This document shows positions 1,525 through 35,394 of a stretch of 42,378 nucleotides of DNA, one piece after another; positions within the stretch are counted from its first letter, which is position 1, and each line of letters starts with the position of its first letter. The position numbers were made by a program, and so were the translations under genes. This stretch comes from Candidatus Angelobacter sp. Gp1-AA117 (lineage in GTDB: Bacteria > Acidobacteriota > Terriglobia > Terriglobales > Acidobacteriaceae), in the NCBI GenBank assembly GCA_003223515.1, contig QHVI01000104.1, positions 1 to 42,378 of the forward strand, written 5' to 3'. A model generated the notes under the pieces. The model saw nothing but the letters and a program-made list of their open reading frames with translations, was not told the DNA's origin and did no database searches.

Positions 1525-2433
1525 ATGAATCCTTTTGATCTTCGCGGCCCCGAGTTTCTGGTCTTCTATCTGCTGTTCACGCTTTTAACCCTGCTGGCGC
1601 TGCATCTGTGGCGGCGCGCTGCCGAAGCAGGCCCATTTCCTCCACAAGATGTAACTGACCCATATCTTTACGCCTGTCTCCAGGGCGGTTCCAGGGAAGC
1701 AATCAAAGCAGCCGTCATGACATTGATTGACCGCAATGCTCTGGCTGTGGATGACATAAGGATCAAGCTGTCAGACAATCCGGCGTTGCACACCAGCTCC
1801 GTAGCCATGGAGCAGGATCTCCTGAATCACTTCGCCATCAGCCCGGACAAGCTCTATGAACTCCTGAAAGAGGCGGAGTATCGCAACCCGTGCATTCAAT
1901 ACCAAGCCAGGCTGCGCGAACAGAAGCTTCTTCCTGATGATGCAATCATCGAAGCAAGACGCTGGCGAATAGCAGCGGCCATTCTCGTCCTTGCTGGAGT
2001 GGCAATCATCAAGATCTGTGTTGCTCTGGCGCGTGGTCATACCAACATCGGATTTCTGGTTCTTCTCACCATCATTGCGATCGTGCTTGCGTTCAAAGTT
2101 GGGGCTCCCCGGCGCACGCAGCTTGGAGATGCATACCTCGACAATGCGCGTGCGCTCTTTTCGGGTCTACGCGAAAAGGTCAATCCAGCGGACGCCGACC
2201 TGCTGTGGATGGCGGCTCTGTTCGGCATCGCGGCTGTGCCCTCGGCCTATTACCTTCGTGAGTTAGCCCGGCCTCCGGCAGGACAAGGGATAGGCTACGA
2301 TTGGTTGGACTGGGGAGGAGGTGGGGGCGACAGCGGTGGAGGAGGTGACAGCAGCGGATGTAGTGGAGGATGCGGGGGCGGTGGTGGCTGCGGCGGCGGT
2401 TGTGGTGGCGGTTGCGGTGGATGTGGAGGATGA
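1525..2433 (+). CDS. TIGR04222-like membrane protein with Gly/Cys-rich C-terminal tail (paralog A)
   Basis: The 302-residue product starts at the ATG at 1525, chosen because GGAGG lies 4 nt upstream and because the paralog downstream begins with the same MNPFDLRGPEFLVFYLL; the longer open frame upstream lacks such support. Residues about 10-30 form a membrane segment, followed by a soluble helical region of about 120 residues, two adjacent membrane segments (about 150-195) and a fourth hydrophobic stretch (about 230-248). The last 40 residues are almost pure Gly with six Cys spaced by two to five Gly and ending CGGCGG. This architecture matches what I recall of the TIGR04222 'near uncomplexed Cys motif' family. 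It is the first gene of an operon with a paralog, a DUF692 oxidase and a small protein. Inference: the Cys-rich tail is a substrate or metal-binding appendage modified by the DUF692 enzyme. Confidence 0.85.
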   Translation: MNPFDLRGPEFLVFYLLFTLLTLLALHLWRRAAEAGPFPPQDVTDPYLYACLQGGSREAIKAAVMTLIDRNALAVDDIRIKLSDNPALHTSSVAMEQDLLNHFAISPDKLYELLKEAEYRNPCIQYQARLREQKLLPDDAIIEARRWRIAAAILVLAGVAIIKICVALARGHTNIGFLVLLTIIAIVLAFKVGAPRRTQLGDAYLDNARALFSGLREKVNPADADLLWMAALFGIAAVPSAYYLRELARPPAGQGIGYDWLDWGGGGGDSGGGGDSSGCSGGCGGGGGCGGGCGGGCGGCGG

Positions 2434-2478
2434 TGCATTTGAACTGCAGCAGGAAATCTAGAAATCTAAGGAGGCGAG

Positions 2479-3321
2479 ATGAACCCGTTTGATCTTCGCG
2501 GCCCCGAATTCCTGGTTTTCTACCTGCTGTTGCTGGCAGCTACGCTGCTGGCAGTGGTTTTCCTGCGGCGCTCCAGAGAATCTGGCCTGCTGCCGCCCCA
2601 GGAGCTGAATGATCCTTATCTTTATGCATTTCTCGCGGGTGGTCCAGGGGCGGCGGTGAACGCAGCCACCATGGCGTTGGTCGACCGTGGCGCACTGAAG
2701 GTAGAAAAGAAGACGCTCACCATCTCACAAGACCCGGCGCTGCAAACCAGTCCTGTGCAAATCGAGAGAGAGGTGCTGGACTACTTCAAGCGCAACTTCA
2801 GCACACCGCGCGAACTGCTGAACCTGGCGCCCAAGCTCAATTCGTGCGTGGAGTATGACAACCGGTTGCGCAGGCAGAAGCTTCTTCCCGATACTGCCAT
2901 CAAACAGGAGCGTCGTTCCCGGGTTGTGAAAGCGGTACTGCTGCTTTTGGGCGTCTCCATCATCAAGCTCTTTGTGGCCATCGCGCGGGGACACAAGAAT
3001 ATTGGCTTTCTGATCATTCTCACCGTGGTTGGTTCACTCGTCGCGATCGTGGTTGGGAACCCGCGGCGTACCACCGTGGGCAATGATTATCTTAAGAATG
3101 CGCAGTCGCTCTTCTCCCGCTTGAAAGGTTCGCCCCGCAGGAAAGACAAGCCGGCTGGAGCCGACCTGCTGTGGGCGGCCGCCTTGTTCGGTGTTGCCAC
3201 TGTGCCCCAGGTGCAGTATCTCCGCGACCTTGGAATGATCGACACCAGCTCCAGCGGCGGCGGAGATAGTGGAGGTGGAGGCGGCTGCGGAGGAGGTGGC
3301 TGTGGTGGTTGTGGAGGATAA
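2479..3321 (+). CDS. TIGR04222-like membrane protein with Gly/Cys-rich C-terminal tail (paralog B)
   Basis: This 280-residue paralog of the preceding gene has the same N-terminus, the same order of membrane segments, the ALFG(I/V)A hydrophobic stretch and a Gly-rich tail, here with three Cys and the same final CGGCGG. The ribosome-binding region AAGGAGGCGAG-ATG is nearly identical to that of paralog A, so the duplication included the translation start. The 45-bp spacer between the genes holds no obvious promoter or terminator, consistent with one transcript. The tail is shorter than in paralog A, so number and spacing of Cys vary while the end is conserved. The last Gly codons (GGT GGT TGT GGA GGA) supply a GGAGG sequence 4-5 nt before the start of the DUF692 gene, pointing to translational coupling. 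The molecular function is unknown. Confidence 0.85.
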   Translation: MNPFDLRGPEFLVFYLLLLAATLLAVVFLRRSRESGLLPPQELNDPYLYAFLAGGPGAAVNAATMALVDRGALKVEKKTLTISQDPALQTSPVQIEREVLDYFKRNFSTPRELLNLAPKLNSCVEYDNRLRRQKLLPDTAIKQERRSRVVKAVLLLLGVSIIKLFVAIARGHKNIGFLIILTVVGSLVAIVVGNPRRTTVGNDYLKNAQSLFSRLKGSPRRKDKPAGADLLWAAALFGVATVPQVQYLRDLGMIDTSSSGGGDSGGGGGCGGGGCGGCGG

Positions 3322-3322
3322 G

Positions 3323-4183
3323 ATGAAGAAAGATCGAGTTGGTCTCGGCTGGCGGCCGGAATTGGCCGGCAGCATCTTCGCCTCGCTCGACAAGATCGAT
3401 GTGCTGGAGGTGCTGGGCAACGATCGCCTCACCGGCGACGATCAGCAGAAACGCGCCTTGAAGTCGCTGGCCAGAGAGGTTCCAATCCATATTCATGGAG
3501 TCGATCTCGGCCTGGCCGGCGCTGAAAAAGTGGACGGCAATCGGCTGGATCGGTTTGCGCGGCTGGTGAACTACGTACAGCCGGAAGCCTGGTCAGAACA
3601 TCTGGCCTTCGTGCGCGCCGGTGGCCGCGAAATTGGACATCTTGCCGCCCCGCCGCGTACCCAGGAGTCAGTGGACTGTGCCGTATGGAACGTGACCAGG
3701 GCTGCAAAGATGGTGGGCGCCGCTCCCTGCATGGAAAACATTGCCACCTTGATACAGCCGCCCTGCAGTTCACTCACGGAGCCACAATGGATTTCACAGA
3801 TCATCGCTGACAGCGAATGCGGGCTGCTGCTGGATCTTCATAACGTCCATGCAAATGCCACCAACTTTGGATTTGATCCGCTGCAGTTTCTGGCGGAGAT
3901 TCCGCTCGAAAGAGTTCGTTGCATTCACATCGCGGGTGGCAAGTGGATCAGCTCTCCGGATGGCAGCAGGCAGTACCTGCTCGACGATCACCTGCACGAA
4001 ACGCCGCAACCAGTTTATGAGCTTCTCTCGGAAGTTGCAGCGAGGACCGAACAACCGCTGACGGTAATTCTCGAACGCGATGGCGCTTATCCGGAGATGT
4101 CGTTGCTGCTGCGTGAAGTGGAGATGGCACGCGCAGCAATGGCGATAGGAAGAAAGAGAAAGGTCCGGCAACATGCAAGCTGA
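3323..4183 (+). CDS. DUF692 (MbnB/TglH-like) multinuclear iron oxidase family protein
   Basis: The start at 3323 lies one base beyond the stop of paralog B, with GGAGG inside that gene's last codons; the product is 286 residues, a usual length. It shows the metal-site pattern of the DUF692 TIM-barrel family: HGV around His58, SEHL around His93, EN at 138-139, LLLDLHNVHANA at 168-179 (Asp171, Asn174), IHIAGG with His202, LDDHLHETP with Asp221/His223 and ERD at 251-253. Characterised members (MbnB, TglH, BufB-type enzymes) are iron enzymes that oxidise Cys residues of ribosomal peptides, usually with a partner protein. The motif position usually written DVNNVY is DLHNVH here. Neighbouring genes encode Cys-rich tails, which would be natural substrates. 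The family call is firm; the reaction and substrate are inferred. Confidence 0.88.
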   Translation: MKKDRVGLGWRPELAGSIFASLDKIDVLEVLGNDRLTGDDQQKRALKSLAREVPIHIHGVDLGLAGAEKVDGNRLDRFARLVNYVQPEAWSEHLAFVRAGGREIGHLAAPPRTQESVDCAVWNVTRAAKMVGAAPCMENIATLIQPPCSSLTEPQWISQIIADSECGLLLDLHNVHANATNFGFDPLQFLAEIPLERVRCIHIAGGKWISSPDGSRQYLLDDHLHETPQPVYELLSEVAARTEQPLTVILERDGAYPEMSLLLREVEMARAAMAIGRKRKVRQHAS

Positions 4184-4424
4184 TGTAGAACGCTTCCTGG
4201 CACTGCTTTATACAGATGGAAAAGTGCGTAGCAGCTTTTTTGCCGATCCTGCTGCAGTTGCCATGGCACATGGATTGTCAGTGGAAGAATCACAGGCCAT
4301 GGCTGCAGTTCCTATGCAGGATCTGGAGACCGCTTCGCGTGGGTTTGAAAGAAAGCGGTTTCTGAAAGCAAGAGCAAGGTTCTCGTGGGTTCATTTCCTG
4401 AAACGAGTATTTGGAAGTCATTGA
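4173..4424 (+). CDS. Small helical protein, likely partner of the DUF692 enzyme
   Basis: The 83-residue product overlaps the end of the DUF692 gene by 11 bp, so it is probably translationally coupled to it. The N-terminal 50 residues (VERFLALLYTDGKVRSSFFADP then HGLSVEESQAMAAV) resemble a short helical domain that I recall being fused to the C-terminus of actinobacterial DUF692 proteins (SCO6045-like) and also resemble LigA-type small subunits. The basic C-terminus (ERKRFLKARARF) follows. DUF692 enzymes generally work with a partner protein that presents the substrate peptide; this gene is the best candidate in the locus, although it could instead be structural. It has no Cys. The stop codon is immediately followed by the inverted repeat of an inserted RAYT element, so the operon's original 3' end may have been altered. 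Confidence 0.75.
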   Translation: MQADVERFLALLYTDGKVRSSFFADPAAVAMAHGLSVEESQAMAAVPMQDLETASRGFERKRFLKARARFSWVHFLKRVFGSH

Positions 4425-4922
4425 GGCTCGTGTGGCACAGCCGCCCTCGGCTGTGCGGGGAGACTCTTGCCACAGCCACTTGTAATCCTCGGCTCTGTAA
4501 ACCAATCTCTTTCGAACCGGATTCTCCCGCACATATTGGATCTTCTCATTCAATTGCTCTGCACAACGAAGTACATGATCAAATGATTCATCCTGCCAAA
4601 CATGTCCATGCCTTTTGAGAGCTCTGTTGATCGAGTGAGCAGAGGCACCCTTAATACATCCAATCACCTCTTCGAAGCTGAAGGGCTCGAACTTGTGGGC
4701 AGACAAGGGTGTGAAGATCATATGCACGTGATCAGGCATGACGACCACACTATGGAGATGCATCTTTAAGCCGTTGTCATGCAGGCAGTGCTTAAGGACA
4801 AGGTCGCGAGCGATGGGTGGAAGTCTCCACCGGTTGTAAGTCACAAAAGTTATGTAGTGTTCACGTCCGGTTTTCTCAATGTGAGGGAGGTTGCGGCGAT
4901 AAATATATTGTCTTTCTTCCAT
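4290..4922 (-). CDS. REP-associated tyrosine transposase (RAYT, IS200-like Y1 family)
   Basis: The 210-residue open frame contains the Y1 transposase signature: VVMPDHVHMIF with the HVH (HUH) metal-binding pair near residues 65-67, the segment EVIGCIKGASAHSINR typical of RAYTs, and EKIQYVRENPVRKRLV carrying the catalytic Tyr near residue 129. RAYTs are single-strand endonucleases that cut and join DNA at REP hairpins. The gene sits between perfect 34-bp inverted repeats that contain a REP-like hairpin. After DYKWLWQESP the frame reads through the left repeat (TAEGGCATRA is the repeat translated) and then antisense into the small gene at 4173-4424, so the last 60 or so residues are not family sequence. 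The native C-terminus probably lay near residue 160. Confidence 0.88.
   Translation of the reverse strand: MEERQYIYRRNLPHIEKTGREHYITFVTYNRWRLPPIARDLVLKHCLHDNGLKMHLHSVVVMPDHVHMIFTPLSAHKFEPFSFEEVIGCIKGASAHSINRALKRHGHVWQDESFDHVLRCAEQLNEKIQYVRENPVRKRLVYRAEDYKWLWQESPRTAEGGCATRASMTSKYSFQEMNPREPCSCFQKPLSFKPTRSGLQILHRNCSHGL
4425..4458. repeat. Left 34-bp inverted repeat of RAYT element (REP)
   Basis: This sequence is the exact reverse complement of 4937-4970. It contains the hairpin GCACAGCCG-loop-CGGCTGTGC, with core AGCCGAGGGCGGCT on the opposite strand. It starts directly after the stop of the small gene at 4173-4424. Confidence 0.9.
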
Positions 4923-4936
4923 TCTTACAGTTCATT

Positions 4937-4970
4937 CCGCACAGCCGAGGGCGGCTGTGCCACACGAGCC
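4937..4970. repeat. Right 34-bp inverted repeat of RAYT element (REP)
   Basis: This is the exact reverse complement of 4425-4458, located just upstream of the RAYT start codon. The core AGCCGAGGGCGGCT recurs at 19063-19076 and, with one change, at 19264-19277. Confidence 0.9.
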
Positions 4971-5051
4971 TTTCTGTATTCAAACATTCACTAAGGCTTA
5001 GAACGAATTCCAACACAGATTTTGCATGAGCTTCTGGTATTGTTTTGCAGG

Positions 5052-6146
5052 ATGATCAAGCACATCCACATTGCCGGGTACCGGTCGGTTCGAGAGTTGA
5101 GTCTTGAGCTACAGCCCATCAATGTTTTGACTGGGCCCAATGGGTGCGGCAAGTCGAATCTCTACAACTCTCTGGTGCTGATCGGGCGGGCTGCCCAGGG
5201 ACAGTTTGCGCTGGCCATAGCTGAGGAAGGCGGCACACCCAGTGTTTTCTGGGCGGGTGGCGAGCGCATCCGGTACCAGCGCAAGAAGCCTCCGAAAAGA
5301 ATCATTCTGGAATTCGAGGGCGAAGATTTTGGCTATGAGTTACAGGCTGGCTTGCCGGCCCCGAATGAACTTGCCTTGCAGACCATGTTTACGCTCGATC
5401 CGCGCGTAAAAGAAGAGTACATCTGGCCGGCAGGAACCAGGCGGCGGGTGCTGATGCTGAAACGCGATGAACCTTCCGCCTGGCTGCGCAATGCGGAAGG
5501 CAACATGGTCGTCTATCCATTCCAGATTCTGAAACAGGAGTCGGTGCTTTCGCAGATCATCGATCCTCACCTGTATCCGGAAATCTCCTCCGTGCGCCAT
5601 GAAATTCTGGGCTGGCGTTTTTATCATCACTTCCGCACTGACCTGGAGTCGCCCTTGCGCCAGCCGCAGATTGGAGTGCAGACTCCGGTGCTGGGCACAG
5701 ATGGCCACGACTTGGCCGCCGCATTGCAGACCATCCTTGAAGTTGGTGAAGACAGCGCGTTGAAAGAGGCGATTGCCGAGGCGTTCGGCGGAGCTGAGTT
5801 GCTCATCGAGTCCATTGAGACATCCTTCAGCATGAAGCTGCGGATTCCAGGACTGTTGCGTCCGCTGCAGGCGCGGGAGTTTTCTGATGGACAACTGCGC
5901 TTCCTGTGCTTGTGCGCCGCGCTTCTCAGTCCGCGTCCGCCGGCACTGCTGGCTTTGAATGAGCCGGAGACCAGCCTGCATCCCGATCTCATCGGCGCAC
6001 TGGCGCGGCTGATTGTTCATGCTTCAAAGTACACGCAGTTGTGGATCACAACTCACTCCACGGCCCTGGCGGAAAGAATCGAAGAGCATTCCGGGCTGCC
6101 GCGTGTGCGGCTGGCACTCATGAATGGTGAGACGAAAGTCGAGTAA
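5052..6146 (+). CDS. ABC-type/SMC-like AAA ATPase (COG4637 family)
   Basis: The product is 364 residues from the ATG at 5052; ten further residues are possible from 5022, but homologues begin with a sequence like MIKHIxIxGYRSLRxL. Walker A is GPNGCGKSN (about residues 28-36), the signature-like helix is EFSDGQLRFLCLCAAL, Walker B is ALLALNEPETSLHPD (about 305-319), and the H-loop is WITTHSTALAERI. This is the RecF/OLD-like ATPase fold (AAA_21) in its COG4637 form. There is no fused TOPRIM or nuclease domain, so it is not a complete OLD enzyme. It stands alone between the RAYT element and a repeat-filled spacer. Its biological role is unknown; related ATPases act in DNA repair or defence, but nothing next to it indicates a partner. 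Confidence 0.85.
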   Translation: MIKHIHIAGYRSVRELSLELQPINVLTGPNGCGKSNLYNSLVLIGRAAQGQFALAIAEEGGTPSVFWAGGERIRYQRKKPPKRIILEFEGEDFGYELQAGLPAPNELALQTMFTLDPRVKEEYIWPAGTRRRVLMLKRDEPSAWLRNAEGNMVVYPFQILKQESVLSQIIDPHLYPEISSVRHEILGWRFYHHFRTDLESPLRQPQIGVQTPVLGTDGHDLAAALQTILEVGEDSALKEAIAEAFGGAELLIESIETSFSMKLRIPGLLRPLQAREFSDGQLRFLCLCAALLSPRPPALLALNEPETSLHPDLIGALARLIVHASKYTQLWITTHSTALAERIEEHSGLPRVRLALMNGETKVE

Positions 6147-6183: not shown

Positions 6184-6221
6184 TTAGAGAAAATCGACAC
6201 ACCGGATCCAGCTCTCGAAAA

Positions 6222-6416
6222 ATCTGTATTACTAACGATCGAATTCTTCTTTGCTTGCGACGAATTCTCCCGCGCAGCCAAGGGCGCGTGCGGTCCATAG
6301 GGAGCAACACACCGCCAAATTCAATACACATCAACTACTTTTGTTACCTTTGCGTCCTCTGCGTCCTCTGCGGTTAAAAGGTTTTGGTTGTGGCTTCGCT
6401 ACGCTGTGTTCATCAG
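6222..6416 (+). repeat. Three-copy dispersed element of about 190 bp, copy A
   Basis: This non-coding segment is closely repeated at 31865-32057 and, truncated at the left, at 39376-39505. A 29-bp block (6289-6317) is identical in all three. The element includes an inner CTCTGCG-type repeat (6346-6379) and ends with GGTTTTGGTTGTGGC-like sequence. It occupies most of the 368-bp gap between the ATPase and the permease; the open frame of the permease extends through it only because no stop occurs there. Confidence 0.85.
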
Positions 6417-6514
6417 TGTTGATCTGTGGTGAGTTCACTAAAATCAGCGTAATCAGCGTTGATCAGCGGCAAAAATTTGTTCTGTCCCGCCTGCGCTGTG
6501 TTAGTTTGTTGGCA

Positions 6515-7936
6515 ATGCCTGCAGCCTCGCATCCGGAAAAAGACGCCAAACTTATCCGCGGCCTGTCATTGCTTGATTCCATCATGCTGCTGTCGGGCGG
6601 GATCATCGGTTCCGGCATTTTTCTTACCGCCAGGGATATCGCCATCAACACCCGCACGCCGCTGCTGTTTCTCTCCATCTGGGCCATCGGCATGGTCATT
6701 ACCATGCTGGCCTGCTTTGCGTTCGCGGAGATGGGAGCGATGTTCCCGGAAGCGGGAGGGCAGTATGTCTACGTCCGCGAGGCGTATGGAGAGTTCGTCG
6801 CTTTCCTTTATGGCTGGATGATCTTTACCGTCAGCGTTGCCGGAACCATTGCCGCCCTGGGCGCGGGATTTGCCACGTACATCGGCAGCATTTTCCCCGC
6901 GCTCAATGCCAGCCGGGCAGTACTTTCGCTCGGCGCGTTGACACTCACCCGCGGGCACCTGGTTGCGGTTGCGGCCATTGCCGTGCAGACCATCATCAAT
7001 ATCTTTGGCGTACGTCGTGGCGCTATTCTGCAGAACATCGCCACATGGGCGAAGTTTGCGGCCATCGCGGCGTTCGTGGTTTTAGGGTTGGCAATCGGCA
7101 AAGGATCATGGGGCCACTACTCAGCCGCGCTGCCCAGGCCCGAAAATGCGCCTCCCCTGTTCAGCGCCATGGGAGTGGCCTTGATTGCGGTTTTCTGGGC
7201 CTATGATGGCTGGGTCTACATCACATGGTCAGCGGGTGAAGTAAAGGACCCGCAGCGCAATCTTCCCCGCGCCCTGATCCTGGGACTCACGATTGTGGGC
7301 GTGGTTTATCTGGCCATCAATGCGGTCTATCTCTATGCGCTGCCCATGACCGAGATCGGGTCGCAGGAGGCGGTAGCGCAGGGCGCTGCGGTGGCCATGT
7401 TCTCACCTAGGGCTGCGAACTGGCTGGCGGCGATGATCGCGCTTTCCTGCTTTGGGGCCATGGCCTCATGCATCAATAGCGGCGCGCGCGTTTATTATGC
7501 CATGGCGGAAGATGGTGTCTTCTTTCGTGCCCTGGCCAAAGTAAATCCGCGCTGGCACACTCCGGTATGGAGTCTGATCCTGCAGGGGGTATGGTCCGTG
7601 ATCCTGGTGCTCAGCGGACGCTACGACCAGCTCTTTACCTACGTGATGTTCATGATGGTGCTGAGCTATGTGCTGACGGTGTTCGCGGTGTTCATCCTAC
7701 GGCGCAAGCTGCCCGACGCGCCCCGGCCTTACCGCTGCACCGGGTATCCATGGTTTCCGGCACTTTATGTAATCCTGGGCACCATCTGGGCTGTGAATGC
7801 CATGCTGGAAAAACCGCGCGAAGCCGGAGCAGGAATCGGGATTGTGCTTTTAGGCGCTCCTCTGTATCTCTTCTGGCGCAGGAAGAAAGATATGGCTACA
7901 GTGCAGATGAGTACCATCGAGACAAATCCGAAATAA
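6515..7936 (+). CDS. APC-family amino acid permease
   Basis: The start at 6515 was chosen because the frame upstream runs through a dispersed repeat and the family begins shortly before the first helix; this gives 473 residues, typical for the family. The glycine-rich motif of helix 1, SGGIIGSGIF, sits near residues 28-37, and about twelve hydrophobic segments follow. FWAYDGWVYITWSAGEVKDPQRNLPRALI-type sequence in the middle is characteristic of the LAT/SteT-like branch of amino acid/polyamine exchangers, as is SCFGAMASCINSGARVYYAMAEDG later. It would act in the inner membrane as an amino-acid antiporter or symporter; the substrate cannot be read from sequence. It is convergent with the S9 peptidase gene, and with that neighbour it fits use of peptides and amino acids. 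Confidence 0.88.
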   Translation: MPAASHPEKDAKLIRGLSLLDSIMLLSGGIIGSGIFLTARDIAINTRTPLLFLSIWAIGMVITMLACFAFAEMGAMFPEAGGQYVYVREAYGEFVAFLYGWMIFTVSVAGTIAALGAGFATYIGSIFPALNASRAVLSLGALTLTRGHLVAVAAIAVQTIINIFGVRRGAILQNIATWAKFAAIAAFVVLGLAIGKGSWGHYSAALPRPENAPPLFSAMGVALIAVFWAYDGWVYITWSAGEVKDPQRNLPRALILGLTIVGVVYLAINAVYLYALPMTEIGSQEAVAQGAAVAMFSPRAANWLAAMIALSCFGAMASCINSGARVYYAMAEDGVFFRALAKVNPRWHTPVWSLILQGVWSVILVLSGRYDQLFTYVMFMMVLSYVLTVFAVFILRRKLPDAPRPYRCTGYPWFPALYVILGTIWAVNAMLEKPREAGAGIGIVLLGAPLYLFWRRKKDMATVQMSTIETNPK

Positions 7937-32086: not shown

Positions 32087-33760
32087 CTACTTTGCCGAAG
32101 TAATCGGCGGGGCCGGATACTGTGGCAGCGTCTCCCGCGCGCGGTTGGCCCGCTGGATTTCCAGTTCATCAAAGAGCAATGAGGGCGCCACAATCGTGCT
32201 GGGCACCGGCTCAGAACGGTTATAGACGTATTGGTCATTGCCTGCGGCCAGAATGTCACTGCGCAGGCTGCGCGTATCAAGCTGGTTGAACACTGCGCCA
32301 CGCACCAGTTCCATGTGGCCATCGTTCACGTAGACACGCCAGAGCAGCCGCGGAGCCAGGCGCACGCCAGTGGTCTCCACGTAATAGCCATAGGGACGGC
32401 CCTGGTCGCGGCACATCTGAATCAGCTTTTTCTTCAAGTCGTCGAATGACATGGCATTCGACGCCTTGAAGATCAGGTTCGATATGCTCGGACGCGGCGG
32501 ACCTGCCAGCCCGGTGCGGCCATGCCCGTTGGAATGAATGAAGTCGCGGATGGGTTCGCGTCCCAGCAGGTAATTCACCAGCACGCCTTTTTCAATCACT
32601 GTGACCGGCTCGACTTTTACGCCTTCATCATCCACGTCATAGCTGCCAATCAGGCTCTGGTCGTCAATCTTCTTGGAACGCGGATCATCCACCACCGTGA
32701 AGAAATCAGGCAGGACACGGCTCTTGTAATATGAGGCAAAATCACCGCTGGTACGGGCAGGATTGCCCAGGTCAGGCCGTGTACCCACAATGTTGCGGAC
32801 AATCAACTGCTCGAACATTGCCGTGGCAGCATCGGCCGAAAACAGCACCGGGCCGTGGTAATCGTCTTCCACCACAGGAGCCTTGCGCAACTCGGCAAAG
32901 GTGGCAATGAGTTTCTGCACGTCTTTCTGGATCTGCTCCGATGTAGGCAGTTCCTCCGGTTTGGTCACGGTGTAGCCGTGGCTGCGGTCAAGCCGCATGC
33001 CATCAGCAGCCTGCGTGCCTCCGGAAAACGACAGGCTATAGACTGCCCTGCCGCTGCGCGTGACTGTGCCTTCTGTGTTGACAAAGAAGCGGTTCAGAAG
33101 CCGGAAATGCAGCGTTGCATCAGAGCTTTGCAGATCAGGATCGACGCGGAAAAGATTGGAGGTGGAGCGGAGCACCTCTTTCCACTTGTTCAGATCGACA
33201 TCCAGCTTGGCCACGTCGCGAACTGAGTCTGCCGGCTTCTCCTCAGAGAAGTCGGGCACCTCATGCTCGACCACAACGTTCTTGAGTGCCGCCTGCTTCT
33301 CGGTAAGTCCACCAAGGGCCGCCTTATATGCTTTATCTGTGGCCAGCCAGAGCTGGTGGCGCAGAGCAGTCTCGTTGTTGTCCATGGGCATGACTTCAAC
33401 TGTGCCCTGGCCTTCGCCGAAATAGCTGTCCTGCTTGTAGTCGCCAATACGTACTACCACGCGGACGAACCGGCCCACGTTGGCCTGATCGCTGCGCAGG
33501 GCTCCGAGCGTGGCATCCGCCGCGTAATCCTGCAGCTCGGTGACTTGGTAATCAATGTAATAGGGACGCTGTAGCTGCCCGAGTTGCAGCTTTTCCTGCG
33601 AGCGCTTCAGCTCCGTGAGCATGGCCTTCAATACCGGATCGCCATGATCGTTGGAAGAAACATCGGCTGCCGGAACCTTGTCGTCCTTGTCATCCGCCAA
33701 GAGAGAGGTTGCAGCTAGCAGCGGCAACAGCAGGAGTGCGAATATCAGAAGTTTGCGCAT
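32087..33760 (-). CDS. Exported TldD/PmbA-family protein without the metal motif (TldE-like)
   Basis: The 557-residue protein begins with a Sec signal peptide (MRKLLIFALLLLPLLAATSLL). It has the TldD/PmbA fold pattern: a beta-rich N-terminal domain with RPYYIDYQVTELQD, then RVLPDFFTVVDDPR, GSYDVDDEGVKVEPVTVIEKGVL-type segment and FIHSNGHGRTG. At the position of the HExxxH zinc motif it has FEQLIVRNIVG, so it is a non-catalytic paralog, like TldE beside TldD in E. coli. The start codon overlaps the stop of the catalytic gene by one base (TAATG), so the two are coupled. The signal peptide implies action outside the cytoplasm, unlike the E. coli enzyme. Confidence 0.85.
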   Translation of the reverse strand: MRKLLIFALLLLPLLAATSLLADDKDDKVPAADVSSNDHGDPVLKAMLTELKRSQEKLQLGQLQRPYYIDYQVTELQDYAADATLGALRSDQANVGRFVRVVVRIGDYKQDSYFGEGQGTVEVMPMDNNETALRHQLWLATDKAYKAALGGLTEKQAALKNVVVEHEVPDFSEEKPADSVRDVAKLDVDLNKWKEVLRSTSNLFRVDPDLQSSDATLHFRLLNRFFVNTEGTVTRSGRAVYSLSFSGGTQAADGMRLDRSHGYTVTKPEELPTSEQIQKDVQKLIATFAELRKAPVVEDDYHGPVLFSADAATAMFEQLIVRNIVGTRPDLGNPARTSGDFASYYKSRVLPDFFTVVDDPRSKKIDDQSLIGSYDVDDEGVKVEPVTVIEKGVLVNYLLGREPIRDFIHSNGHGRTGLAGPPRPSISNLIFKASNAMSFDDLKKKLIQMCRDQGRPYGYYVETTGVRLAPRLLWRVYVNDGHMELVRGAVFNQLDTRSLRSDILAAGNDQYVYNRSEPVPSTIVAPSLLFDELEIQRANRARETLPQYPAPPITSAK

Positions 33761-35334
33761 TAGCGGCCCCCCTGCTTTGCAGTCTGGGTCTGGGTCTTCT
33801 CAAACCCTGGCGGCGGCAGCACCGGCGGACGATCATGCCCTTGCGCCACCTTCTGTACTTCAATTTCGGAGAAAAGCATTGCGGGAGCGGCTGCGGAGAC
33901 TGGAACCGATCCTGATTCCGCGCCACACTCGCCGTTGAATACATCCATCTTGGTACCCGTAAGAATAATTCGGTTCAGCGCCGCCAGCGGCGTGCCGATG
34001 ATGTCTACGCCCCGCACAAGTTCATCGGGGCGTCCATCCGGATAAACTTTCCAAACCATCAGCGGCATGATCTGGAATGCCTGCGGCATGTTGCGCAAAG
34101 TCAGCGTGAAGCCCCCGGCAATATCTTCGAAGTAGAGGCCGTAAGGCTTCTTTTCCTTCTTGATTTGTTCAATCAGCTTGGCCCGCAGTTCTGAATCGGG
34201 CACGGACTTGGAGGAACGCACAATCAAATTGCCCTGTCGCCCCACCGGCATCAAGCCATCCTGTGCGCGCCCGTGGCCGTTGGAGTGTAGAAAACCCTTT
34301 ACCGGCATGCGCGACATCAGGAACTGCTTGAGAATGCCGTTGCTGATCAACTGCACTTTACTGCTCTTCTGGCCTTCATCGTCATAGGCATATCTGCCGC
34401 TCAGCTCGATGCCTTCCAGCGAGGACAGCGTGGGATCATCTTCAACACTCAGGAACGGCGGCAGCACCGCCTGGTTGATCATCTTGGTGAAGGTCTGTCC
34501 TTCATTCTCGCCGCGCTGTCTCTGTCCTTCCAGGCGGTGGCCCACAACTTCATGGAAGAACACGGCAGCCGCCCGGCCTGAAAGCAGGGCCGGTCCGCTG
34601 AACGGCTCGACCACCGGAGCAGTCTTCAGTTTGTGCAGGTCGTCTGCAATCTTGGCAATCTTTGTAGTAATGATCTGCTCACTCGGCAGCTTGTCAAACG
34701 ATGTAGCGTCAAACGTCTCCGAGCGCGCCAGTTCCATGCCATCCACAGCGCGGGTGCTTCCCAGGGCCAGAACGCGAATCAGCGGTTTGGAGGTGACGAT
34801 ACGCGAACCCTCGCTGGATACGAAGTACTGCGTGGGATTATCCACCAGCAGCATCACCGTGGAGTTCTCGATTTCAGGGAACTTGTTGAAGATCGCAGAG
34901 TAGCGGCGAATCTTGTCTTCCCACTCCTTCTGGTCGAACTTCGGCGGCAGGGTGGCGTTTCCGATGGAGACCTGCGGCTCCTCCTGCGAAAAGTCCGCAG
35001 AAGAATCCTCTTCTTCCGCGTGCGTATTATCAAGATCGCGATTGCCGACACGGACAGAAATATCGGCATTGCGCTCATGCCGGTTGATGCTGGCCACAAT
35101 CGCGCCGTTGCTGGCGACCACGACCGTCCCGAACTCTTCATCGACCGAATAGCTCATGAAGTACGGATGAGGATCAGCCTTACTCAGCGCCGTCATGGCG
35201 CGTTCCATCTCCTGCTGCATGGTGCGCAGCAGTACCGGATCGGGGTTGCTGGATTGGCTGGATTGTCCCGCCGCGGCGGGCAAAAAGGCGCAGGCCAGAA
35301 ATAGCCCTGAAATCAAAGACCTGGATAATGACAT
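33760..35334 (-). CDS. Exported TldD-family metalloprotease (catalytic subunit)
   Basis: Starting at the ATG at 35334 gives 524 residues with a signal peptide (MSLSRSLISGLFLACAFLPA); the frame reaches further upstream without support. The TldD motif HEVVGHRLEGQ (HExxxH) lies near residues 264-274 and is followed by the typical LSVEDDPT, GRYAYDDEGQKSS and GFLHSNGHGRAQDG segments. TldD/TldE heterodimers are zinc proteases that degrade or trim unfolded peptides. Here both partners are exported. It follows an 83-residue gene on the same strand by 60 bp and may be in one operon with it. Confidence 0.9.
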   Translation of the reverse strand: MSLSRSLISGLFLACAFLPAAAGQSSQSSNPDPVLLRTMQQEMERAMTALSKADPHPYFMSYSVDEEFGTVVVASNGAIVASINRHERNADISVRVGNRDLDNTHAEEEDSSADFSQEEPQVSIGNATLPPKFDQKEWEDKIRRYSAIFNKFPEIENSTVMLLVDNPTQYFVSSEGSRIVTSKPLIRVLALGSTRAVDGMELARSETFDATSFDKLPSEQIITTKIAKIADDLHKLKTAPVVEPFSGPALLSGRAAAVFFHEVVGHRLEGQRQRGENEGQTFTKMINQAVLPPFLSVEDDPTLSSLEGIELSGRYAYDDEGQKSSKVQLISNGILKQFLMSRMPVKGFLHSNGHGRAQDGLMPVGRQGNLIVRSSKSVPDSELRAKLIEQIKKEKKPYGLYFEDIAGGFTLTLRNMPQAFQIMPLMVWKVYPDGRPDELVRGVDIIGTPLAALNRIILTGTKMDVFNGECGAESGSVPVSAAAPAMLFSEIEVQKVAQGHDRPPVLPPPGFEKTQTQTAKQGGR

Positions 35335-35394
35335 GATATTGTTCAGTTTACCTGAACCGTTAGACACCACAAAATTACCTTTGGGTAGCAACTG

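Follow-up and report, generated by a model that had tools for sequence, protein, structure and literature searches.

MNIO (DUF692) enzymes are known for acting on peptides, and the larger families of those peptides carry export signals. Here we describe a four-gene cluster in which an MNIO gene follows two genes for TIGR04222 membrane proteins with Gly/Cys-rich tails. It lies in a 42,378-nucleotide stretch of Candidatus Angelobacter sp. Gp1-AA117 (contig QHVI01000104.1; genome size 6.48 Mb), which we call the window. The closest described systems are those of Antoine et al. 2025 (PMC12452194): in its available part, that article reports more than 3,500 TIGR04222 proteins, mostly from Actinomycetota and often, if not always, encoded near MNIO genes, and proposes subsets with cysteines in Ser/Gly-rich C-terminal regions as MNIO substrates. 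PME-type 2 partner proteins occur in at least 10% of the TIGR04222-MNIO clusters, and many clusters apparently have no partner gene (PMC12452194). A first-pass annotation of the window had supposed that the pairing might already be known, and so it is, published in that article as a substrate proposal. The available part of the article holds no experiment on the pairing and no chemistry for it, and the matches listed in our literature search included no further work on it. For a related system, the available part of PMC13419390 reports that HvfB together with HvfC converts the cysteines of the AEGKCGEGKCG motif to copper-binding 5-thiooxazole, that HvfB needs HvfC for its active iron state, and that an engineered HvfBC fusion is active.

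A candidate modification operon

We consider it probable, at roughly 60%, that the four genes form a modification operon in which the MNIO and a partner acting in trans oxidise the tail cysteines of both TIGR04222 proteins. The genes are:

1525–2433, plus strand: TIGR04222 membrane protein 1 (302 residues), with a Gly-rich tail holding six Cys and the terminal sequence CGGCGG
2479–3321, plus strand: TIGR04222 membrane protein 2 (280 residues), with a Gly-rich tail holding three Cys and the same terminal CGGCGG
3323–4183, plus strand: MNIO/DUF692 enzyme (286 residues), conserved metal-site residues intact
4173–4424, plus strand: LigA/NHLP(Os1348)-like domain protein (83 residues), the probable partner of the enzyme

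This is the layout that the first-pass annotation had described, from the adjacent, paralogous membrane proteins with their cysteine tails to the overlapping 83-residue gene, which is conserved across relatives. The two membrane proteins share 57% identity, and both pass the cut-off of the TIGR04222 (near_uncomplex) profile hidden Markov model (103.6 and 109 bits; cut-off 43). Queried singly, they reach 30.6 and 29.5 bits against DUF2207_C (PF20990; cut-off 33), a limit that is exceeded only after a neighbouring in-frame stretch is added to the query. A GGAGG-type site precedes the ATG of both genes. One base separates the second gene from the enzyme gene, whose longest open reading frame runs from GTG 3269 while its conserved start is ATG 3323, and the third and fourth genes overlap by 11 bases.

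Co-occurrence of tail and enzyme

Across a sample of 396 genomes of the phylum, TIGR04222 was matched at an E-value of 0.001 in 23 genomes, with 19 above the cut-off, and MNIO in 107. By comparison of coordinates, an MNIO gene directly adjoins the TIGR04222 gene in 15 of the 19, as against 92 with an MNIO anywhere in the genome among the 377 that lack TIGR04222 above the cut-off. The co-occurrence for which the first-pass annotation had suggested looking was found, and it exceeds chance. Genomes G062, G059, G377 and G144 have TIGR04222 above the cut-off and no MNIO match in the genome. The distribution of the operon is patchy, since TIGR04222 was matched in none of the other sampled genomes of the window's family. 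TIGR04222-like genes also adjoin an MNIO in three Actinomycetota loci from a plasmid collection (L079–L081), with Cys tails in two and none in one; a tblastn search of plasmids with the TIGR04222 core gave no match.

The tails themselves are uniform in composition. We defined a Gly/Cys tail as a C-terminus whose last 30 residues hold at least 20 Gly, Ser or Cys, with 3 Cys and 8 Gly. In 27 tails, two of them from loci without an MNIO, Gly or Ser precedes the cysteine in 159 of 161 cases and Gly follows it in 133, and the commonest Cys spacings are 4 and 3 residues. Our census of MNIO neighbourhoods covered 97 of 123 rows, window included (26 were left out, and 30 of the 97 offered only 1500 bases per side). 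A Gly/Cys tail adjoins the MNIO in 16 of the 97, again with the window, and belongs to a TIGR04222 protein in 15 of these. In the remaining one (L094, genome G116) it ends a protein of 182 residues that has four hydrophobic segments, matches neither the TIGR04222 profile nor Pfam, and is followed by the MNIO and then by a 176-residue partner bearing the same domain as the window's partner. Here the tail is retained on a different scaffold, in a single case. A DNA pattern for Cys-Gly-Gly-Cys proved uninformative as a search tool: it ignores frame, matches 275 of the 396 genomes, and its reversed control matches widely as well.

Not every observation fits a simple pairing of tail and enzyme. G062 (L029; 99% complete, in many contigs) and G059 (L039; a single contig) keep Cys-tailed TIGR04222 genes (6767–7702, minus strand, and 6200–7747, plus strand) despite having no MNIO match, which disfavours strict dependence of the tail on an MNIO, and the MNIO of L079 adjoins a TIGR04222-like protein without tail cysteines. 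An explanation in which the unmodified tail serves as a thiol metal sink or an assembly tag, while the MNIO acts elsewhere, would account for the former two genomes, and the apparent relation of the membrane part to DUF2207_C makes a role of its own possible for that part. We nevertheless think this unlikely: the MNIO adjoins in 15 of 19 genomes and belongs to one enzyme group (see below), and the tail stays beside an MNIO where the scaffold has changed. The earlier proposal that the tails are DUF692 substrates survives in part, supported by adjacency, by the Cys context and by the L094 protein; strict dependence is not supported.

Some TIGR04222 proteins depart from the usual architecture. 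In L081, from Tsukamurella, the annotated 643-residue TIGR04222 gene (3034–4965) has the helix pattern twice, with a Cys-rich tail in another frame between the two copies, and could be a merger of two tandem genes. In L034 (6424–7656) and L041 (6090–7274), an N-terminal CxxC...CxxC and a hydrophobic segment are added ahead of the usual first segment.

The enzyme and its relatives

The enzyme reaches 224.1 bits against PF05114 (cut-off 25), which places it in the MNIO superfamily, and it was aligned to solved DUF692, TglH and MbnB chains. Six positions (H58, H93, E138, N139, D171 and N174) are identical in all 92 MNIO rows, window included, and four more (H202, D221, H223 and E251) in 91, the exception being a gap. 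We take these ten residues, each a His, Asp, Glu or Asn, to be metal ligands; the window's enzyme has them all, in agreement with the apparently complete metal site seen at first pass. The best NCBIfam models are BufB and HvfB, and the enzyme stays under the cut-off of both, with 185.6 bits against a required 310 for the BufB bufferin maturase (NF050167). Its four named relatives come from two Acidobacteria metagenome-assembled genomes (MAGs), one Xanthobacteraceae and one Leptospirales MAG, bearing in mind that taxon labels of MAGs can be erroneous.

We placed 92 of 104 MNIO loci in a tree of the MNIO domain, the other 12 being too short or low-scoring; as a FastTree product with local supports and long branches, it has to be read with care. 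The 12 enzymes with a short partner and the one fused to it form a single clade of 13 with a local support of 100, to which the sequences from Xanthobacteraceae and Leptospirales also belong. Every one of the 22 tail loci in the tree falls inside a group of 24 rows (support 90), alongside L079 and L095; another 64 rows, of different MNIO types, are set off with a support of 99.

A leader-type domain as probable enzyme partner

The 83-residue domain is best read as the partner of the enzyme, because in 17 of the 19 TIGR04222-MNIO loci (phmmer with the window's protein; 15 loci of the phylum, window included, and the four named ones) the enzyme has a relative encoded downstream, and in one more the two are fused. 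The first-pass annotation had cast the small gene in this role, and both its position and the fusion speak for it. The fused copy, added by a profile search, is L030 (351–1517, minus strand), where a Pro-Ile-Arg-rich linker joins the MNIO at its C-terminus to the short partner domain in a single open frame of 388 residues. The domain is hence present in 18 of the 19 loci, and in 13 of the 19 the partner is reduced to it. With start positions set by hand from conserved residues, partners are 69–101 residues long in 12 loci and 159–194 in 5, the longer ones starting with the same domain, as do those of L094 and L095. L027 has a different, longer open reading frame at this position. All 15 profile hits above 45 bits in the 396 genomes adjoin an MNIO. 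Twelve of these sequences had gone into the profile and that of G165 nearly duplicates one of them, whereas two hits are independent: one lies about 20 bases past the MNIO match in G116, the other about 950 bases ahead of it in G368. The remaining 35 hits, at 36 bits or less, include the fused copy (G042) and one adjoining an MNIO in G267.

What kind of domain is this? At an E-value of 0.01, 15 of 16 partner sequences match NF038399 (Os1348/NHLP), the best at 1.4e-12, and 8 of 16 match LigA. The model of the window's partner is all helical (mean predicted local distance difference test score, pLDDT, 79.8). SonA and Os1348 account for its 16 best Foldseek rows; neither NGO1945 (3dee) nor TglI (8hi7) is among the 35 rows at E-values up to 10. 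DUF2063 was not matched in the 83-residue protein at E-values up to 10. Being encoded after the MNIO, free of the DUF2063 signature and helical at its N-terminus, the protein has these traits of PME-type 2 and may fall among the short PME-type 2 or the very small 'adjamnio-V' proteins of Antoine et al. Several results temper this picture of the partner: the window's partner scores under the curated cut-offs of Os1348 and LigA (28.2 bits against 40 for NF038399), its Foldseek E-values are 0.15 or higher, and the short-partner profile misses the partners of L027 and of L079–L081, the downstream open reading frames of the latter three looking alike by eye.

The domain has no Cys core and keeps company with the enzyme; we read it as a leader-type domain that acts in trans. 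Its match to the precursor families NF038399 and TIGR04509 could also bring to mind a precursor of a ribosomally synthesised and post-translationally modified peptide (RiPP), with an NHLP leader and a basic core, which would make the 83-residue protein the true substrate and leave export or immunity to the TIGR04222 proteins; the basic, aromatic C-terminal segments do resemble cationic peptides. This is very unlikely: L030 has the domain as part of the enzyme, the 159–194-residue partners of 5 loci begin with it, and the segment after it, only 6 residues long in L078, is free of Cys in all 14 short partners.

For the partner as a helper of the enzyme, the basic end may have another use. The last 23 residues of the window's protein are basic and aromatic with a net charge of +7, and the last segment of the 14 short partners (counting the fused copy and one from L081) ranges from +2 to +11 with up to 8 aromatic residues. 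Ends of this kind might hold the enzyme at the membrane, although we offer this only as a suggestion, because the last 30 residues are also basic in 9 of 10 longer partners (+4 to +8; −2 in L095).

Two observations adjoin the subject of the partner. A different MNIO cluster, in L095 (4031–6023), encodes a 279-residue partner starting with the same domain, a 79-residue Cys-containing protein without a Pfam match, and then the MNIO. In the window, the end of the 83-residue gene is overlapped on the opposite strand by a gene for a REP-associated tyrosine transposase (4290–4922, minus strand; NF047646, 86.2 bits).

On which side of the membrane is the tail?

The model of protein 2 has long helices at residues 9–34, 139–170 and 175–193, whereas the fourth hydrophobic segment is split into helices of 10 and 8 residues (228–237 and 243–250) and the tail is disordered. 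The side of the tail turns on this fourth segment; that it is split in the model and contains Pro in 16 of 23 proteins speaks against a membrane-spanning helix. Most of the 23 proteins carry Arg and Lys after the first membrane helix, before the second and after the third; by the positive-inside rule, the large domain would then lie inside, along with whatever follows the third helix directly. On the different scaffold of L094, the stretch linking the last hydrophobic segment to the tail contains 7 Arg and 3 Asp. Together, model and charges favour, though not decisively, a tail that is probably on the cytoplasmic side, contrary to the published prediction.

The case for an exported tail deserves to be set out in full. 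Here the enzyme–substrate pair would be the same, the fourth segment would span the membrane, and the modified tail would bind metal in the periplasm as bufferins do. The AlphaFold2 models of Antoine et al. (PMC12452194, available part) predict a periplasmic TIGR04222 tail, and the same source describes Sec signal peptides on bufferin and oxazolin precursors. In our own data, the Kyte-Doolittle mean of the fourth segment reaches 1.6, a usual limit for membrane helices, in 16 of the 23 proteins; its flanking charges are not decisive; and the protein 2 model was built from 7 sequences, with block pLDDT values of 57–74 in this very segment. Set against this are the broken fourth helix, the seven arginines ahead of the tail in L094, and the consideration that a tail at the extreme C-terminus would need to be modified in the cytoplasm before crossing the membrane. 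We regard export as doubtful. The two sides make different predictions. Known folds did not help: Foldseek with the TIGR04222 model gave no row at an E-value of 0.001 or better, phmmer against solved structures gave only weak rows (E-values of 0.13 or higher), and the matches listed for DUF2207/YciQ topology contained nothing of use.

A possible mechanism

Returning to the cytoplasmic tail, the parts can be assembled as follows. The MNIO, together with the 83-residue partner, would oxidise cysteines in the Gly/Ser-Cys-Gly tails of both TIGR04222 proteins. Although similar to the leader domain of a RiPP precursor, the partner is a separate protein (part of the enzyme in one relative) rather than part of the substrate, and so would activate or position the enzyme in trans. 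Its basic end may dock the enzyme–partner pair on the membrane, where the tail would lie beside the enzyme on the cytoplasmic side. By analogy with HvfBC, the tail cysteines would probably undergo a four-electron oxidation and then probably serve to bind metal at the membrane, with a membrane-anchored, Cys-derived metal ligand, for instance 5-thiooxazole, as the product. Taken whole, namely a portable Gly/Cys tail on unrelated scaffolds, oxidised by an MNIO at the cytoplasmic face with a leader-type partner tethering the enzyme in trans, and yielding such a ligand inside the cell, this picture is possible and we put it forward tentatively.

If true, it would mean that the targets of the MNIO family extend to integral membrane proteins, modified in situ, in a protein-modification system rather than a route to a peptide natural product. 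The partner seemingly lacking in many published TIGR04222-MNIO clusters may then be a domain with the appearance of a stray RiPP leader.

Other genes in the window

An AAA_21-type ATPase gene lies at 5022–6146 (plus strand; PF13304, 107.3 bits), with a weak likeness to the anti-phage protein MAD3 (61.3 bits, cut-off 420). Between 24109 and 31365 (plus strand), two T2SSE genes and one T2SSF gene precede those for a PilS-like kinase and a sigma-54 response regulator, an arrangement that resembles a type IV pilus block. A PmbA/TldD-type metallopeptidase gene pair is found at 32087–35391 (minus strand), about 28 kb from the operon; relatives of these peptidases process some modified peptides.

Comparison with known systems

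The clusters of Antoine et al., as far as the available part of the article describes them, contain the same kind of TIGR04222 protein with a Gly/Ser-rich Cys tail adjoining an MNIO gene. Many of those clusters appear partnerless, whereas a partner domain is present in nearly all of ours.

With the bufferin and oxazolin systems (BufBC, HvfBC) the locus shares the MNIO superfamily, a partner gene placed after the enzyme and Cys-Gly in the target; the oxazolin product carries 5-thiooxazole, according to the available part of PMC13419390. In those systems the precursors bear Sec signal peptides and the partners are of the DUF2063-RRE type, while here the targets would be multi-helix membrane proteins, the partner has no DUF2063 match, and the enzyme scores below the BufB and HvfB cut-offs. 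The natural fusion in L030 amounts to a single-chain enzyme comparable to the engineered HvfBC fusion for oxazolin described in the available part of PMC13419390.

The partner, in turn, points to the Os1348/SonA families, to judge from its profile matches and best Foldseek rows. In SonA, however, the domain is built into the substrate peptide; here it follows the enzyme or is fused to it and has no Cys core. PflA/PflD (PMC12636437, available part) likewise bring NHLP-type and MNIO domains into one pathway, but there the NHLP leader sits on the substrate peptide, unlike the window's partner. Relative to the available parts of the literature surveyed, the present locus and its relatives add a type of partner domain, a natural fusion of partner and enzyme, a change of scaffold under a retained tail, and an argument on the topology of that tail.

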